DNA of 44,642 bases. It comes from Cellulomonas algicola. GTDB taxonomy: Bacteria; Actinomycetota; Actinomycetes; Actinomycetales; Cellulomonadaceae. The notes under the pieces were generated by a model. It worked only from the letters and a program-made list of their open reading frames with translations. It had not been told where the DNA came from and searched no databases. Below are positions 1-7,025 of this stretch, piece after piece; positions within the stretch are counted from its first letter, which is position 1; each line of letters starts with the position of its first letter. The position numbers and the translations under genes are program-made. Location: contig NZ_BHYL01000050.1 in NCBI RefSeq assembly GCF_003851725.1, positions 1 to 44,642 on the forward strand. Reading direction: 5' to 3'.

Positions 1-164
1 GCGCGCACGTCGAGGCGCGACGCGCTCGCGGTCGCGACCGGGGAGGCGACGACGAGGGCGACGAGCGCGGCCAGGGCGGCGATCCCGCGGCGGCGGTCGC
101 GGCGGCGCGTGGAGCCGGCACGGCGGTCGCGGTGCCGGGTGCGGGCGGTGGAGGTGGCGCTCAT
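1..164 (-). CDS. Secreted protein, SipW-cluster substrate (N-terminus only)
   Basis: Only the first 54 codons are in the window; the gene runs off the left edge. The ATG overlaps the stop of the upstream gene (ATGA), so it is the last visible member of the minus-strand operon and probably translationally coupled. The protein has a very Arg-rich N-terminus of about 27 residues, then a hydrophobic stretch (IAALAALVALVVA), then ATASASRLDV. That A-S-A-S-R-L box recurs in four other proteins of this locus and probably marks the signal peptidase site. It is likely processed by one of the two local SipW-like peptidases (inference). The mature part is out of view, so no function is assigned. Confidence 0.7.
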   Translation of the reverse strand, partial: MSATSTARTRHRDRRAGSTRRRDRRRGIAALAALVALVVASPVATASASRLDVR

Positions 165-583
165 GACAGAGTCACCACGAGGGAGCGGACCGCCGTCGCG
201 GTCACGGGGGCGAACCCGCCGAGGCGCACCGTGGTCGCGCCGGCAGGGAGCGGACCGCTCGCGGACAGCAGCAGGGAGCCGGCGGCGTCGTGCCCGGTGA
301 CGGCGACGGTGCGGCCGGCGCAGGCGGTCGCGTCCACGTCGAGGACGTCGACGGCGGCGACGCGGTCGGTGTCGACACCGCCGACCTGCTCGAACGCCAG
401 ACGGGTCGTGACGTCGACGTCGCACGGGGCGCTCGCGACCGCGGCGCCCGAGGCGACCCGGTCGTGCGCGGCGACGTCGAGGCGCGCCGCCGACGCGGAC
501 GTCAGGCCGCCCACGAGGGCGAGCCCGAGGACGACGACACCCGTGCGGGTGGCGCGGGTGCGCAGGTCAGCGGTCCGAGGCAA
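161..583 (-). CDS. Secreted protein with SipW-type signal region
   Basis: A protein of about 140 residues in the operon with the signal peptidase gene just upstream. I chose the TTG at 583 because AGGAGG at 590-595 sits six bases before it and the overlap with the peptidase stop is only 17 bases. An ATG at 634 is in frame but would overlap by 68 bases and has no visible ribosome binding site. After a short basic N-terminus come a hydrophobic segment (GVVVLGLALVGGLTSASA) and the box ASAARLDV, then HDRVASGAA, a phrase also found in the 1156-1587 product. Two Cys (APCDV, ATACAG) could form a disulfide. The remainder looks like a small beta-rich domain. Probable extracellular matrix or fibre component (inference). 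Confidence 0.75.
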   Translation of the reverse strand: MPRTADLRTRATRTGVVVLGLALVGGLTSASAARLDVAAHDRVASGAAVASAPCDVDVTTRLAFEQVGGVDTDRVAAVDVLDVDATACAGRTVAVTGHDAAGSLLLSASGPLPAGATTVRLGGFAPVTATAVRSLVVTLS

Positions 584-1130
584 CGGGCACCTCCTGGGCG
601 GGCTGGTCGGCGCCCTCCGGGACGGTGCGGTCACGCGCGGGCCACAGCAGCCAGCCCGCGACGACCAGCGCGAGCGCGATCCACGTCGTGGGTGCTGCGA
701 GCACCGGCGTCACGGCGCCGAGTCCCGCCACGTGCCAGCGGACGACGCCCGCGACGTCGTCGGCCGTCGGGTGCCAGACGTCGTCCCAGCCGTTGTTGTC
801 GCCGCGCGTCGTCCAGCCGGTCGCGGCGTCGCCCCCGACGACCCGGTGGACGACGTAGCCGTCGACGCCGTCGGGGCGGTAGACGATCACGTCGCCCACC
901 TCCACGGCGCCGGCGCGCGCGACGACCAGGTCACCCGAGGCGAACGTGGGGTCCATCGACTCGCCGGCGACGACGACGAGCGTGGTCCCGCCGCCCCATG
1001 CCGTGGGCCACAGGAGGACGGCGACGGCGAGGACGAGGGCGGCGGGCACCCACGCCACGACCCGCCGCCAGGGCGCGCGGGTCCGCGTGGTCGCGGTCCT
1101 GGCGGCCGCGGGCGGCGTGGTCGGGGTCAT
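567..1130 (-). CDS. sipW: SipW-like signal peptidase I (Ser/His type)
   Basis: A 187-residue membrane protease that removes signal peptides at the outer face of the membrane. The catalytic serine is in GESMDPTF (Ser58). The second catalytic position lies in YVVHRVVGG, where His95 replaces the Lys of ordinary bacterial LepB. This is the ER/SipW-type Ser/His arrangement. The GDNN box (residues 110-113) is present. One membrane segment lies near residues 25-43 and a second near 148-164, which fits the SipW topology. The ribosome binding site GAGGAGG precedes the ATG. It sits between two small secreted-protein genes and is probably dedicated to them. A paralogue lies at 3735-4373. Confidence 0.9.
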   Translation of the reverse strand: MTPTTPPAAARTATTRTRAPWRRVVAWVPAALVLAVAVLLWPTAWGGGTTLVVVAGESMDPTFASGDLVVARAGAVEVGDVIVYRPDGVDGYVVHRVVGGDAATGWTTRGDNNGWDDVWHPTADDVAGVVRWHVAGLGAVTPVLAAPTTWIALALVVAGWLLWPARDRTVPEGADQPAQEVPVASDR

Positions 1131-1155
1131 GGGCTTCCTCCTCGGCGACGGGTGG

Positions 1156-1587
1156 TCAGGCGTTCTTCACCAGGACGACGGACACGGTGTCGAGCTCGTC
1201 GTGGCTGGTGAGCCCGCCCGCGATGGGCTGCGGGGCGGCGGGGTCGAACGCGATGCCGACGGTGTCGGACGCGCCGACGTAGACGGTGCCGCTCCAGTCG
1301 CCGAGGTCGACGCCGGGGGGCACGTCGGACAGGGCGATCGTGAGGACGACCGGCACGGCACCGGAGGCGTCCGGCGGCGTGGTGCCGTCACGCTCGGTGC
1401 TCAGGGTCGCGACGGCACCCGTCAGCCCGTCGACGTCGGTTGCGACGCCGGACGCGACGCGGTCCTCGGCACCGACGACGAGCTGCGAGGCGGACGCCGT
1501 GGCCAGGCCGGCGATGCCGATCCCGACGAGGGCGACCGCGGCGATCCGCTTGCGGTTGTCCTTCTTCTGGTTCGTCTGCGTGGTCAT
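1156..1587 (-). CDS. Small secreted protein, SipW-type substrate, first gene of operon
   Basis: A 143-residue protein. The ATG at 1587 has AGGAGG at 1594-1599 six bases upstream; the reading frame runs further back to 1806, but that part has no good start signal. The N-terminus is basic and polar (TNQKKDNRKR), followed by a hydrophobic helix (IAAVALVGIGIAGLATA) and ASASQLVVG. EDRVASGVA matches the HDRVASGAA phrase of the 161-583 product. No cysteine is visible in the mature part. The peptidase gene starts 25 bases downstream, so enzyme and substrate are co-transcribed. No known fold is recognised; a TasA-like structural subunit is possible by context only. Confidence 0.85.
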   Translation of the reverse strand: MTTQTNQKKDNRKRIAAVALVGIGIAGLATASASQLVVGAEDRVASGVATDVDGLTGAVATLSTERDGTTPPDASGAVPVVLTIALSDVPPGVDLGDWSGTVYVGASDTVGIAFDPAAPQPIAGGLTSHDELDTVSVVLVKNA

Positions 1588-1777
1588 GGTGCACCTCCTG
1601 GTCCGCGTTTCGTCCCGGTCGGTCCGAGCCGTTGTTGCGAACCGTTCTTGTTGACGCATCCAGGGTGCGGGTCCATGCGAACGCATCGATAGGACGCTGG
1701 TCCCAGCGAATTGGACAAGCGTCCAGACAAACCCACGGCGACCAGCGATGACGCCGCACGGTGTGGATCGCGCCACA
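1588..1777. promoter_or_regulatory. Divergent intergenic region of the SipW operon and the SGNH hydrolase gene
   Basis: About 190 bases separate the minus-strand operon from the plus-strand hydrolase. It contains the inverted repeat CGCTGG/CCAGCG (1695-1700, 1703-1708), nested in GGACGC...GCGTCC. This may be an operator or a transcript hairpin. No convincing -35/-10 pair was found on either strand, though the region must hold the operon promoter. Confidence 0.35.
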
Positions 1778-2590
1778 ATGTCCCGCGTGAGCACCCCCGC
1801 CGACACCCCCCGCTGGAACCGCTACGTCGCGATCGGCGACTCGTTCACCGAAGGGCTCTGGGACTCCCCCGACGGCCCCGACTCGCCGACGCGCGGCTGG
1901 GCGGACGTCCTGGCCGCCCGCCTCTCGCAGCGTCGCACCGCCGCAGGCGAGACCCCGCTCGAGTACGCCAACCTGGCGATCCGCGGCCGGCTGCTGCGGC
2001 CGATCCTCGTCGAGCAGGTGCCCGCGGCCCTCGCGATGAAGCCCGACCTGGTCAGCCTGGTGGGTGGCGGGAACGACATCCTGCGCCCCGCCGCGGACGT
2101 CGACCGGCTGGCCCGGCTGCTCGAGCAGGCCGTCGTGCGGCTGCGCGAGGCCGGCGTCGACGTGCTGCTCGGCACGGGTGTCGACGCCTCCGACAGCCCA
2201 CTCGTGCGGGCGACCCGCACGCGCGTCGGCATCTACAACGCGCACATCTGGTCGATCGCCCGCCGGCACGACGCGCACGTCGTCGACCTGTGGGGCATGC
2301 GCAGCCTGCGCGACTGGCGGATGTGGGCCGACGACCGGATCCACCTGACGTCCGACGGGCACGCGCGCGTCGCGCAGGCCGCGCTCGTCGGCCTCGGGCT
2401 CGAGCCCGACGAGCCGCGCTGGGACGACCCGCTCGCGCCGCTGCCCCCCACGCCCCGGCTCGAGCAGCTCCGCGGCGACGCGCAGTGGCTCCGCGAGCAC
2501 GTCTACCCGTGGGCGACGCGTCGCCTGCGCGGGCGCTCCTCGGGCGACACGCGCGTGCCGAAGCGCCCGGTCCTCACGCCGCTCGACTAG
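1778..2590 (+). CDS. SGNH/GDSL-family hydrolase
   Basis: A 270-residue esterase/lipase-fold protein. Block I is AIGDSFTEG with nucleophile Ser22, the oxyanion residues are in VGGGNDI (Asn99), and the catalytic Asp-His pair is in DDRIHLTSDGH (Asp186, His189). No signal peptide is visible, so it is probably cytoplasmic. The start is uncertain. The ATG at 1778 has no Shine-Dalgarno sequence. A GTG at 1787 lies seven bases after CACAAT (1774-1779), a plausible -10 element, and could be a leaderless start. It sits on the opposite strand between two related SipW operons. Substrate unknown; deacylation of lipids or cell-wall sugars is typical for the family. Confidence 0.9.
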   Translation: MSRVSTPADTPRWNRYVAIGDSFTEGLWDSPDGPDSPTRGWADVLAARLSQRRTAAGETPLEYANLAIRGRLLRPILVEQVPAALAMKPDLVSLVGGGNDILRPAADVDRLARLLEQAVVRLREAGVDVLLGTGVDASDSPLVRATRTRVGIYNAHIWSIARRHDAHVVDLWGMRSLRDWRMWADDRIHLTSDGHARVAQAALVGLGLEPDEPRWDDPLAPLPPTPRLEQLRGDAQWLREHVYPWATRRLRGRSSGDTRVPKRPVLTPLD

Positions 2591-2611
2591 CGGGTCACCG
2601 GCGCGTCCCCG

Positions 2612-3730
2612 TCAGCGGTCGACGACGCAGGTGGAGAACGAGAAGCTCTGCGTCCCGACGATGTTCGACGCCGTCCGCGAGGTGGTCTGGAAGACGTAGG
2701 GACCGCTGAGCGACGGCACGACCGTCCGGTCCAGGCGCCACTCGTCGCCGCCGTACCGCCAGGCGTCGGGCGACCCGCCCGCCGACCGGAGCCGCGCCAC
2801 GGCCGCGGTCATGTCGACCGGCGTCTGCCACGCCACGTAGAACGGCGACGTGCCGTTGCCGGTGACGGTCGTGACCACGCACGCCTCACGGTCGGTCCAC
2901 GTGCCCTGCGCGGACGACACCGTGTAGGCGGACGGGGTCACGACGGCGCCGGGCAGCGAGTAGTTGCACACGGTGACCGTGCGCACCTGGCCGGCGACGA
3001 CCGTGTCGTACGGCTGCCAGACGTCGGTGCGCCCGGAGATCTTGATCAGCCCCGCCGCGCTGGGGGCGCCGAGCTGGTACTTCCACGACTCGTCGCCCTG
3101 CAGCGAGTACCCCGTGCGCGCGCCGTTGAACGGCGCCTGCGCGGTGTCGATCCAGGCGGACCAGACGATCGGCGTCGTGGACCGCGTCGTGACGCGGATC
3201 GTGAAGCACGCCTGCTGCCCGCTCGTCGCGTTGGTGAGGTCCCACGTCACGGTGGTGTCGAACGCCGAGCCGTCGGGTCCCGGGTACACGGGACCGGCGG
3301 CGGCGGGCGGGACCCAGGTGGCGGCCACGGGCCAGCCGTCGCCCGCGACGAGGACGCGCGCGGTCGTCGTGGTCGGGGCGGTGAACGGGGTGCTCGTCGT
3401 GGCGGTGAACGCACCGCCCGCGAGGTGGCCCGTGGAGTCGAGCAGCACGGTCCCGGCGCTCGTGGCGAGCAGGACGCGCCCGGTGGCGCACGTCCCGCCG
3501 AGCCCGGTGACGGTGACCTGCGTGTACTGCCCGCCGACCGCGGAGCCGCTCGGGGTCACGGTCGCGGGGCCGGTGGCGCAGCGCTGCACGGCCGCGGCGT
3601 AGGGCTGCGCGGGCTTCGCGAGGGTCAGGCGGGCCGCGCTCGCCTCACCGAGCCCGAGGACGGCGACGACGAGCACGAGCACCGTGACGACCAGCCCGGC
3701 GGTGCGCGGGCGCAGCAGGGTCCGGTGCAC
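2612..3730 (-). CDS. Large secreted beta-rich protein, SipW-type substrate
   Basis: A 372-residue protein starting at a GTG four bases after the stop of the second signal peptidase gene, so co-translation is likely. The N-terminus (HRTLLRPRTAG, then VVTVLVLVVAVLGLG) leads into EASAARLTL, the box shared by this locus. The mature part is rich in Thr, Val, Ser and Trp, with at least five Cys (RCATG, GTCAT, QACFT, TVCNY, EACVV) and one more near the C-terminal end (STCVVDR). It reads like two or three Ig-like beta domains. No catalytic motif was seen. It could be the tip or adhesin subunit of a surface structure built from the smaller paralogues (inference). Confidence 0.85.
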   Translation of the reverse strand: MHRTLLRPRTAGLVVTVLVLVVAVLGLGEASAARLTLAKPAQPYAAAVQRCATGPATVTPSGSAVGGQYTQVTVTGLGGTCATGRVLLATSAGTVLLDSTGHLAGGAFTATTSTPFTAPTTTTARVLVAGDGWPVAATWVPPAAAGPVYPGPDGSAFDTTVTWDLTNATSGQQACFTIRVTTRSTTPIVWSAWIDTAQAPFNGARTGYSLQGDESWKYQLGAPSAAGLIKISGRTDVWQPYDTVVAGQVRTVTVCNYSLPGAVVTPSAYTVSSAQGTWTDREACVVTTVTGNGTSPFYVAWQTPVDMTAAVARLRSAGGSPDAWRYGGDEWRLDRTVVPSLSGPYVFQTTSRTASNIVGTQSFSFSTCVVDR

Positions 3731-3734
3731 GGCG

Positions 3735-4373
3735 TCAGCCGCCGGCGGGGGTGAGCGCGGGGCGCCGGGTGCCGTCGTCGTCGACGGCCGGCGTCCCGGT
3801 GGGGAGGTCGTCGGCGGCCGGGTCCGGACCGCTGGCAGGTGCGGGGGTCGGGTCGGCGTCGTCGGTGTCGTCCTCGTCGCGCGACGACGGCCAGACGAGC
3901 AGGGCGCCCGCGATGAGCAGGCACGACCCGAACACCCACGGCGACGCGACGAGCCGGCCGACGAGCCCGACCTTCGCGACGTGGAGCTGCGCGACGCCGA
4001 GGACCTGGTCGTTCGTGGGGGCGAACGGGTCGGTCCAGTCGTTGTTGTCGCCCTGGACGACCCAGCCGTTCGTGCCGTCGCCCCCGATGAGGCGGTGGAT
4101 GATCCGCCCGCCGTCGAGCTCGTCGGGGCGGTAGACCACGACGTCGCCGACCTGCGGCTCGCCGCAGCGCGAGACCACGAGGTCGCCCGTCTCGTACGTC
4201 GGCTCCATCGAGTGCCCGGAGACGATCGTCAGCGTCGTGCAGCCGCCCAGGTTCGTCGGCCACAGCAGCCACGCGGCGACCGCGGCCGCGGAGTAGAGCA
4301 GGACCGACGCGACGGCACGCAGCACCCGGTGCGCGAGGTGCGCACCGGGTGCCGTCGTGACGTCGCTGGTCAT
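3735..4373 (-). CDS. sipW: SipW-like signal peptidase I (Ser/His type), second copy
   Basis: A 212-residue protein with the same layout as the peptidase at 567-1130. A membrane segment near residues 22-38 is followed by SGHSMEPTY with Ser55, GDVVVYRP, IIHRLIGGDG with His93, and QGDNN. A second hydrophobic segment lies near 145-161. A charged tail of about 50 residues (many Asp, Pro, Ala) is missing from the first copy. The ATG at 4373 is five bases beyond the preceding stop. The reading frame is open further upstream, but that part overlaps the substrate gene antiparallel to its composition and is a shadow. It probably processes the products at 4379-4804 and 2612-3730 (inference from order). 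Confidence 0.9.
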   Translation of the reverse strand: MTSDVTTAPGAHLAHRVLRAVASVLLYSAAAVAAWLLWPTNLGGCTTLTIVSGHSMEPTYETGDLVVSRCGEPQVGDVVVYRPDELDGGRIIHRLIGGDGTNGWVVQGDNNDWTDPFAPTNDQVLGVAQLHVAKVGLVGRLVASPWVFGSCLLIAGALLVWPSSRDEDDTDDADPTPAPASGPDPAADDLPTGTPAVDDDGTRRPALTPAGG

Positions 4374-4378
4374 CGGTC

Positions 4379-4804
4379 TCAGCCGTCGATGCTGACCGCG
4401 AACGAGGAGATCGTGTTGTAGTCGACGCCGGCCGGGAGTGCGAAGGCGACGAGCGTGGCCGTGGTGTGCGGCGCGGTGAGCGTCTTGGGGGTGAGCTCCG
4501 TGTACGAGCCCGACGCGGTCTTCCACGCGACGCGGATCGTCTTGCCCTGGCAGTCGGCGTCGATGTTGCTGAACTGCACCTCGGACGGCGCGTAGCCGGT
4601 GGTGCCGAGTGTCGGCGTCTTGTACTTGGCGGTGACGGCGCCCGTCGCGGCCTTCTGGCAGGTCGCGTCGACGCTCACGGTGCCCGTCGCGGCGGTGCCG
4701 TTCGAGGTGAGGTTGAGCTGCGACGCGGACGCGAGGGACAGGCCGGCGACGCCGAGGACGGCCAGGCCGACGGCCAGGCCCTTGCGGGTCGAGAACTTCG
4801 CCAT
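4379..4804 (-). CDS. Small secreted protein, SipW-type substrate, first gene of second operon
   Basis: A 141-residue protein. GGAG lies about seven bases upstream of the ATG at 4804. A short basic N-terminus (AKFSTRKG) and hydrophobic stretch (LAVGLAVLGVAGLSLA) lead to SASQLNLTSNG, so the box ASASQL is intact. Two Cys (DATCQKA, DADCQGK) could pair. The mature domain is rich in Thr and Val and probably beta-structured. It is the first gene of an operon that repeats the order of the neighbouring cluster: small substrate, peptidase, larger substrate. A fibre-forming subunit is a contextual guess; no family was assigned from sequence. Confidence 0.88.
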   Translation of the reverse strand: MAKFSTRKGLAVGLAVLGVAGLSLASASQLNLTSNGTAATGTVSVDATCQKAATGAVTAKYKTPTLGTTGYAPSEVQFSNIDADCQGKTIRVAWKTASGSYTELTPKTLTAPHTTATLVAFALPAGVDYNTISSFAVSIDG

Positions 4805-5030: not shown

Positions 5031-6239
5031 CTACGGCCGAACGGGTGACGCCTTGTGGCCGCCGGTGCCGAGCGGGATGCGCGCGACGAGCCGTGCGCCG
5101 CGACCGGCCCCCGGCTCGAGCGCGACGGAGCCGCCGACGAACGTCAGGCGCTGGCGCATCCGGGCAGTCCCCGACGCGACGCCCGCGGTCCCCTCGTCGT
5201 AGAGCGCGCCGTCGTTCTCGACCGCGACGACGAGCACGCCGTCCTGCACGTCGACCGACGCCGTGATCGACGTCGCCGGCCCGTGCTTGAGCGAGTTCGT
5301 CACGCCCTCCTCGACGACCCGCACCGCGAGGAGCCGCTCGGGCACCGTGAGCCGCGGGTGCGCCGGGTCGTCGTAGGCGCGCACGGCGTCGGTCACGTCG
5401 AGGCGGGTCGCGATGCTGGCGGGGAGCCGCCCGAGCAGCGCGCGCACCGCGGGCACGAGGCCGAGCTCGAGCCGGTCCGGGTACAGCAGCCGGCTCATCT
5501 CGCGCACGTCGGCCGCGCGGGCCTGCTCGAGCTCGCCCCGGATCCAGTGCAGGTCGTCGAGGTCGCCCGGGTCGAGCGGGCCCTGCTCAGCGTGCGCCGC
5601 GATCTGGTCGAGCCGCGCCTCGACGAGCACGAGCTTGTTCTGCAGCGTGCCGTGCAGCCCTTCCGCGACCTCCCGCCGGACGCGGATCTCCTCCTGCTCG
5701 AGCGCCCGGACGGCGTTCTCGACGAGGACCGCCTCACGCTCGGCACCGCGGATCTGCGCACGCAGGCGGCGCCTCGCGACGAGCCCCCACATGCCGATCG
5801 CGCCCGAGATCACCCCGATGACCAGCCCCGAGAACAGCTCGGCCTCGACCACCTCGCGCGTCGGGTCCTCGTAGACGCCCAGCAGCTGCTGCGCGCCGAT
5901 GCGCAGGACCGCGCACGCGGTCGCGGCGAACAGCAGCGAGACGGCCATGTGCCAGATGCGCGTCGCCCGGTGCGCGTTGACGACGGCGAGGACCGCGACG
6001 AGGCCGACGACGGCGGCGAAGTTGGCGCCGAGCCGGCTCCAGACGCTGACCGACTGCCAGTCCTCGACGACGCGGCTGTAGATGTACGTCGTCTGGAGGG
6101 CCGCGCCGACCGCGTAGCCGGTCGCGACGATGCCGCTCGCCCGCAGCAGCCCGACGCGGTCGCTGCGCAGGTCGCGGGCGCGGCGGGCGACGAGGGCGGC
6201 CGACTCGTCGTCGGCGGACGTGCTGCGGGTGGTGGGCAT
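5031..6239 (-). CDS. Sensor histidine kinase, HisKA_3/NarL-type
   Basis: A 402-residue membrane sensor kinase that would phosphorylate the divergent LuxR-type regulator at 6357. Four hydrophobic segments lie between about residues 31 and 155. The dimerisation region contains VRREVAEGLHGTLQNKL, with His196 as the phospho-acceptor. The ATP-binding domain shows VVEEGVTNSLKHG (N box) and later SGTARMRQRL, with a GAGRGARL glycine motif. No extracellular sensing domain is obvious, so the signal may be sensed in the membrane. The ATG at 6239 has GGGA six bases upstream. The frame is open on to 7463, but that stretch is antisense to the response regulator and is not real coding. Confidence 0.88.
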   Translation of the reverse strand: MPTTRSTSADDESAALVARRARDLRSDRVGLLRASGIVATGYAVGAALQTTYIYSRVVEDWQSVSVWSRLGANFAAVVGLVAVLAVVNAHRATRIWHMAVSLLFAATACAVLRIGAQQLLGVYEDPTREVVEAELFSGLVIGVISGAIGMWGLVARRRLRAQIRGAEREAVLVENAVRALEQEEIRVRREVAEGLHGTLQNKLVLVEARLDQIAAHAEQGPLDPGDLDDLHWIRGELEQARAADVREMSRLLYPDRLELGLVPAVRALLGRLPASIATRLDVTDAVRAYDDPAHPRLTVPERLLAVRVVEEGVTNSLKHGPATSITASVDVQDGVLVVAVENDGALYDEGTAGVASGTARMRQRLTFVGGSVALEPGAGRGARLVARIPLGTGGHKASPVRP

Positions 6240-6356: not shown

Positions 6357-7025
6357 ATGAACGCTGCCGCGAACGGCCCGGTGCGCGTCGCCGTGGTCGA
6401 GGACCAACCACTCTTCCGCTCCATGCTCGAGCGGATGCTCGACGACACCGACGGCCTGCAGGTCGTGGTGGCCACGGGCACGGTGACCGAGGCGACACGC
6501 CTGCTCCCGCCCGGCGCGGTGGACGTCGTCGTGCTCGACGTGGACCTGCCGGACGGCAACGGGATCGCCCTGGGTGTCACCCTGCGGCGCCGTCAGCCCG
6601 CGCTCGGGGTGCTCCTGCTGTCGGCGCACGACGCGATGGACCTGCTGCTCGACCTGCCGCCCGACGTCGCCGCCGGCTGGGGCTACCTGTCGAAGACGTC
6701 GTCGACGAGCGAGGAGGTGCTCGTCTCGGCGGTGCGCGCGGCGGCGGTCGGCGAGACGGTGCTCGACCCGGCGCTGCTCGCCCGGATGGCGCCGCGCGCG
6801 GGGTCGGCGGTGTCGCGCCTGACGGACCGCCAGTACGAGGTGCTGCGGCTGCTCGCCGAGGGCCTGTCGAACGCGGGCATCGGCGCGCGACTGGGGATCA
6901 CGGAGAAGTCGGTGCAGAACCACGTCAACGCGCTGTACGCGACGCTCGGCATCGACACCGACCCGAGTCGGAACCCGCGGGTGAGCGCGGCGCTGCGCCT
7001 GCTCGCGGAGACGGGTCCCGTCTAG
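6357..7025 (+). CDS. LuxR/NarL-family response regulator
   Basis: A 222-residue two-component regulator. The receiver domain (about 9-130) has the acidic pair ED at residues 15-16, the phosphorylation site Asp61 in VVVLDVDLPDG and a Lys in YLSKTSS. The C-terminal LuxR helix-turn-helix reads LTDRQYEVLRLLAEGLSN through GITEKSVQNHVNALY. The transcript is probably leaderless, as GATACT lies seven bases before the ATG. It is divergent from a HisKA_3 kinase, its likely partner. Targets are unknown; the palindrome-rich promoter immediately downstream (7073-7135) has different half-sites and may answer to another regulator. Confidence 0.93.
   Translation: MNAAANGPVRVAVVEDQPLFRSMLERMLDDTDGLQVVVATGTVTEATRLLPPGAVDVVVLDVDLPDGNGIALGVTLRRRQPALGVLLLSAHDAMDLLLDLPPDVAAGWGYLSKTSSTSEEVLVSAVRAAAVGETVLDPALLARMAPRAGSAVSRLTDRQYEVLRLLAEGLSNAGIGARLGITEKSVQNHVNALYATLGIDTDPSRNPRVSAALRLLAETGPV

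Follow-up and report, generated by a model that had tools for sequence, protein, structure and literature searches.

Paired cassettes for probable SipW-like secretion of a new substrate family in Cellulomonas algicola

The window analyzed here, a stretch of 44,642 nucleotides at the start of contig C50 (NZ_BHYL01000050.1) of the 4.5-Mb Cellulomonas algicola assembly, carries two paralogous gene cassettes. As judged from their sequences, each combines an endoplasmic reticulum (ER)-type signal peptidase with secreted substrates of one new family, in a chromosomal slot that is common with another SipW-type cassette. We read them as SipW-like secretion cassettes of a matrix or adhesin type acting at the cell surface, with a probability of roughly 55%. 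The system is real and conserved and has no match in the family libraries searched; it is of a known kind with a new substrate family. With these cassettes, the soil bacteria of the genus Cellulomonas probably assemble and decorate a structure on the cell surface, using new building blocks and a route known so far from Bacillus biofilms. The nearest named matches were C. septica (95%) and C. fimi HM71 (86%).

The initial annotation had placed two minus-strand cassettes in this region, and we recovered all seven open reading frames in the same order, at the same coordinates and on the same strand. Cassette 1 encodes substrate A (P0001, 141 residues; 4379..4804), with the signal GVAGLSLASASQL and one beta domain containing two conserved cysteines, an ER/archaeal-type signal peptidase (P0002; 3735..4373), and substrate B (P0003, 372 residues; 2612..3730), in which the signal and an A-like N-terminal domain precede an exchangeable C-terminal head at about residues 147-372. 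Cassette 2 encodes a first substrate of the P0001 family that lacks the two cysteines (P0004; 1156..1587), a second ER/archaeal-type peptidase (P0005; 567..1130), a second substrate with a TTG start inside the peptidase gene, which it overlaps (P0006; 161..583), and a two-domain substrate (P0007; 1..164). The last gene is not whole: the contig end cuts it, and the rest lies on contig C234 (L114). Contig C234 and window positions 1-114 have at least 100 bases in common, and completion of P0007 on that contig gives a two-domain protein of about 281 residues (by arithmetic, the contigs not being joined). Beyond the completed gene, C234 carries an opposite-strand frame, as in the complete relative L040, which we take from a motif to be uracil-DNA glycosylase-like.

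ER-type signal peptidases have a Ser-His active site (PMC10269814). Both window peptidases exceeded the curated cut-off of TIGR02228 (53.7 and 67.7 bits, against 51.85) and were 47% identical to each other, consistent with the earlier call of two diverged Ser/His enzymes. The catalytic positions of P0002 are Ser55, His93, Asp109, and Asp115. In 87 distinct rows obtained from 91 peptidase matches, the serine and histidine were kept in 85 and both aspartates in all 87; the exceptions were L092_3838 (T/G) and one fragment. The window peptidases are thus assigned by sequence to the ER/archaeal type, with a predicted Ser-His rather than Ser-Lys active site. Their identity as SipW in the strict sense was not borne out, as the equivalog model NF046067 gave 25.2 and 27.1 bits against a cut-off of 190. 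The genome contains one further S26 match, on contig C277 (130.5 bits). In a tree of 85 rows (without L092_3838 and the fragment), whose long branches are unsure, the five rows of second-cassette peptidases grouped in a single clade (99/95), next to a clade of 58 first-type rows (98/97). The twin cassettes thus stem from one old duplication, and a few species share this doubling. A separate, independent doubling of the first-type cassette was seen in L117 (G602), from another genus of Cellulomonadaceae.

The five secreted proteins form one family, with an invariant A-S-A-x-x-L where the hydrophobic stretch ends. Iterated profiles seeded with P0001, P0003, P0004, and P0006, which contain the window proteins, recruited one another and collected 142 to 147 frames each at 1e-4, with family frames in 53 of the 61 sources searched. 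The window proteins are also rows of the alignments A5, A6, and A7, so that their own matches there arise by construction. P0001, P0004, and P0006 are single-domain proteins, and P0003 and P0007 carry an extra C-terminal domain. An alignment of 31 single-domain proteins, from which P0004 types were left out, showed the two cysteines to be invariant; P0004 and its counterparts lack them. The earlier idea of strict peptidase-substrate pairs received no support, the cleavage motif being identical in both cassettes.

No Pfam or NCBIfam model matched the five substrates, and the 31 rows of A5 gave only chance matches to these libraries, of one or two members each and below the shown cut-offs. The PDB contained no sequence match to the family at E up to 10, and profile searches of it with A5 and A6 found nothing. 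The model of the SipW-dependent signal, TIGR04088, did not match the window's five proteins (E up to 1) or the 31 aligned ones (0.1). On the C. algicola genome, the domain profiles returned at E ≤ 0.001 only the five substrates of this locus; weaker rows of the two-domain profile began with a broken frame of cassette 1 (0.017) and, outside the locus, at 0.1. The genome-wide search with a signal profile that the initial annotation had proposed succeeded in part: of the 17 matches (E up to 10), the top four were substrates from the window (1.6e-15 to 1.3e-8), but an outsider on C331 (0.0017; 22 of 38 positions, in the hydrophobic part) outranked the fifth, P0007 (0.0145). Thus, whole-domain profiles are needed to find P0007, and the substrate set looks closed by its domains, though not by its signal alone.

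Neither a lipobox nor an LPXTG-like pattern was present (in the fifth protein as far as the contig reaches), which rules out lipoproteins and sortase substrates. Tat export was likewise ruled out by the lack of a twin-arginine in P0001, inspected by eye. Among 96 distinct substrates picked by ASA-x-x-L, which places the +3 leucine by construction, the mature +5 residue was hydrophobic in 93. The strand that TasA donates is its mature N terminus, with F29, I32, and F39 (PMC9674648); the hydrophobic mature N terminus of the Cellulomonas substrates may resemble this donor strand, and we regard the likeness as a lead.

The gene order regulator, kinase, A, peptidase, B, and in some cases C, followed by a convergent SGNH gene, was found in 41 Cellulomonas genomes with both flanks, with B missing in L056 and L088. 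Because this order recurs in so many genomes together with both flanking genes, the cassette is more than a chance arrangement. A third substrate with a different signal, LGCAGLAVSMARA, and a conserved MAHEH start stands downstream of B in L076, L078, L079, and L081-L087. At 1e-6, the peptidase matched in 75 of the 81 genomes of the genus, other SipW-type peptidases included, while the substrate family occurred in 51 of them, in 84 of the 221 genomes of the taxonomic family (9 of its 25 genera), and in 9 of 396 genomes of a phylum sample, its own genome included. In loci fetched from other families of the phylum, an ER-type peptidase adjoined the substrates in six of seven; the seventh stops at a contig end, and an eighth, a weak match, was left out.

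We then considered the slot, defined as the stretch between the two-component system and the SGNH gene when both lie within 12 kb. Kinase matches (1e-15) were found in 76 of the 81 genomes and SGNH matches (1e-60) in 75; both were present in 73 genomes, on one contig in 65, and within 12 kb in 64. G069 was left out because its kinase and SGNH gene are 2.55 Mb apart, and eight further cassette genomes, with the flanks on different contigs or one missing, stand outside the count. By hand assignment, 41 of the 64 slots held the cassette described here and 13 held another SipW-type cassette with an intact Ser-His peptidase. Two (G017 and G032) contained only a peptidase-like frame without the catalytic serine, and eight were nearly empty, with gaps of 17 to 439 bases (six of the eight were read as sequence). 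All 56 filled slots thus contained an ER-type peptidase frame, 54 of them with intact serine and histidine. This sharing of one position with other SipW-type cassettes supports the likeness to the SipW/TasA system that had been suggested from the window.

Because the SGNH gene and the kinase stay where the slot is nearly empty, we consider them constant neighbors. The SGNH/GDSL hydrolase gene (1748..2590, plus strand) does lie between the two cassettes, as first described; it runs in the opposite direction and, as it remains beside nearly empty slots, is probably not a component. Strict co-occurrence of kinase and cassette was also ruled out by their counts (76 of 81 genomes against 51 of 81 for the substrate profile). 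In G001, an alternative cassette occupies the slot and a window-type cassette lies beyond the SGNH gene. In L045 (8591-9217) and L046 (8912-9715), an alternative-type peptidase lies beyond the SGNH gene, at the place taken in the window by cassette 2, which is possibly a second slot.

The alternative cassettes (L158-L168, L048, and L092) have the same position, an ER-type peptidase, and like heads on the last protein; they differ in their signal type, and a relation between the protein bodies went undetected by profile comparison (window-type A5 against 11 alternative substrates, A8: probability 17 over 12 columns). Of ten frames scanned from alternative slots, nine exceeded the TIGR02228 cut-off, the tenth being the Ser-less frame of G017, and the signals AAW[ST]D or ANWSD occurred in 11 of 13 fetched non-empty slots. 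With TIGR04088, 4 of 10 alternative proteins reached 15.7-18.8 bits, all below the cut-off of 19; these were four of the six first-gene proteins scanned. Ser-less frames were open in all four cases: L156 (G017), L157 (G032), L158 4075-4716 (G002), and L092 3838-4422 (G068), in the last two beside a full alternative cassette. The frame was far closer to the window's peptidase (35% over 117, 4e-14) than to an alternative one (33% over 45, 0.009). It may be a relic of a first-type cassette that has been replaced, or else a peptidase with a new function.

The C-terminal part of B is of several kinds, as seen by eye. It is a ricin-type lectin in L062 (1.4e-19) and L067 (1e-21), and Pfam found the same domain in the alternative-cassette proteins L159 (9e-15) and L160 (1.1e-12); lectins of the L160/L159 set matched L067 at 31% over 148. 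Like heads also stood behind different signals in L161 and L058 (72% over 221 columns), in the window's P0003 and the alternative L163 (40% over 256 columns), and in L160 and L053 (58% over 118 columns). Because like heads sit behind both signal types, they seem to have been moved between the two secretion systems. Of all the evidence, this apparent exchange speaks most strongly for an adhesin-like end piece. By reading only, L168 has the same layout as L159 and L160, in which an AAWT[DN]-type signal precedes the sequence of a ricin-type lectin.

Together, the sharing of the slot and the exchangeable heads support the view that the cassettes are equivalent to matrix systems of the SipW/TasA or Bsa type and that the head is adhesive. 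The cassettes fit the SipW-type matrix kind, in which the peptidase is encoded with its secreted substrates; here we infer substrate status from adjacency and common signals. In the mechanism we propose, the substrates would leave the cell through Sec, the local peptidase would cut them after Ala-Ser-Ala, and the mature proteins would associate at the surface, where the single-domain proteins would be the main subunits and the two-domain protein would form an adhesive head that in some cases binds sugars. Assembly would most likely proceed by strand exchange through the mature N terminus (x-x-Leu-x-[Leu/Val]), a route that is unproven. Equally unproven, the likeliest switch for the cassette would be the neighboring kinase and regulator. 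Such control is suggested by analogy with the Clostridium perfringens sipW-bsaABCRSD operon, which includes a kinase and a regulator that are needed for its expression (PMC7395162). There, too, a peptidase is grouped with several secreted proteins and a two-component system, but the regulators lie inside the operon, whereas in Cellulomonas they are outside neighbors; the likeness is one of gene content. The Bacillus subtilis tapA-sipW-tasA operon also has an ER-type peptidase beside its substrates, a hydrophobic mature N terminus, and a main-type and an accessory-type substrate. In contrast, no sequence relation was found between the substrates, the Cellulomonas peptidases lie far below the SipW cut-off, and lectin-type heads in some species and the flanking two-component system set Cellulomonas apart.

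Several observations weigh against a surface matrix or adhesin. The TasA-like fold (a jelly roll with a donated N-terminal strand) and the fibers considered initially received no clear support: the substrates have no TasA/CalY match in Pfam or among PDB chains, and the models of P0001 and P0003, of mediocre confidence (predicted local distance difference test scores of 59 and 66), gave no clear fold match. Foldseek returned nothing at E ≤ 0.001 for either, and the best VIA-align scores, Z 6.5 (root-mean-square deviation 3.7, 101 aligned) and 6.6 (4.4, 130), are usual for unrelated models. The VIA-align rows were headed by mu-homology and MATH/TRAF domains and included FnIII domains; a carbohydrate-binding module chain, 3ndy_E (Z 5.2, 104 aligned, 3.7), was indistinguishable from the other rows. 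TasA was absent from the listed fold matches of these mediocre models, which excludes nothing. Moreover, a recognized lectin head was present in only 2 of 39 B rows, we saw no partner of the anchor, chaperone, or sortase kind (no search was aimed at them), and the two-component system may serve something else, since the kinase stays with a nearly empty slot.

The Ala-x-Ala form of the ASA motif is also open to ordinary signal peptidase, and the genome has its further S26 protein on C277, so that the substrates could be ordinary Sec clients of a housekeeping enzyme, with the ER-type peptidases redundant or acting elsewhere. We consider this improbable, given that peptidase and substrates occur together in 41 slots and in six of seven loci of other families and that the conserved motif reaches into the mature part. 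Two further explanations are somewhat less remote, though each still seems unlikely to us. The cassettes could export soluble or wall-bound carbohydrate-binding proteins that never polymerize, with the small substrates as stabilizers or partners; the lectin heads of some B proteins, the weak all-beta matches, Ig/FnIII-like ones among them, and the lack of evidence for polymerization agree with this. Yet several small homologous subunits with one two-domain protein, and the position swaps with other SipW-type cassettes, fit a subunit-and-head structure better. Alternatively, the substrates could be highly diverged TasA relatives forming true TasA-type fibers by donor-strand exchange. The slot and like heads are common with cassettes whose first proteins come near TIGR04088, the mature N terminus is conserved as hydrophobic like the TasA strand cited above, and the P0004-seeded iterated profile drifted to two alternative substrates, L048 (3.6e-11) and L092 (4.2e-7). 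Against this stand the missing TasA/CalY and TIGR04088 matches and the low A5-A8 profile probability.

A bolder version of the matrix or adhesin reading can be offered only tentatively. The cassettes would represent a new Cellulomonadaceae surface-fiber family, to which a few scattered systems elsewhere among the actinobacteria would be deeply related. Its fibers would consist of small subunits, each cut by the ER-type peptidase of its own system, with an exchangeable head that binds carbohydrate as the cap; the slot would be a socket in which unrelated fiber systems replace each other, pass heads between them, and in places leave a dead peptidase. If true, this would give cellulose degraders a way to change what they stick to. 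Our results extend SipW-like dedicated secretion to a substrate family without a library model, provide a natural experiment in which two SipW-type systems with common heads replace each other at one position, and open the question of how Cellulomonas attaches to polysaccharides to tests in which single genes are removed. Searches of open-licence papers, judged by title and the opening of the abstract, gave no account of this Cellulomonas system.

Upstream of cassette 1 lie the histidine kinase gene (5031..6239, minus strand, start set at 6239), whose HATPase_c match of 26.0 bits is just below the 26.4 cut-off, and a response regulator gene (6357..7025, plus strand) encoding a receiver and a LuxR-type DNA-binding domain. 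A promoter scan found none, and the three terminator-like sites were weak and all inside genes on the other strand. A repeat search chiefly recovered the paralogy of the two peptidases.

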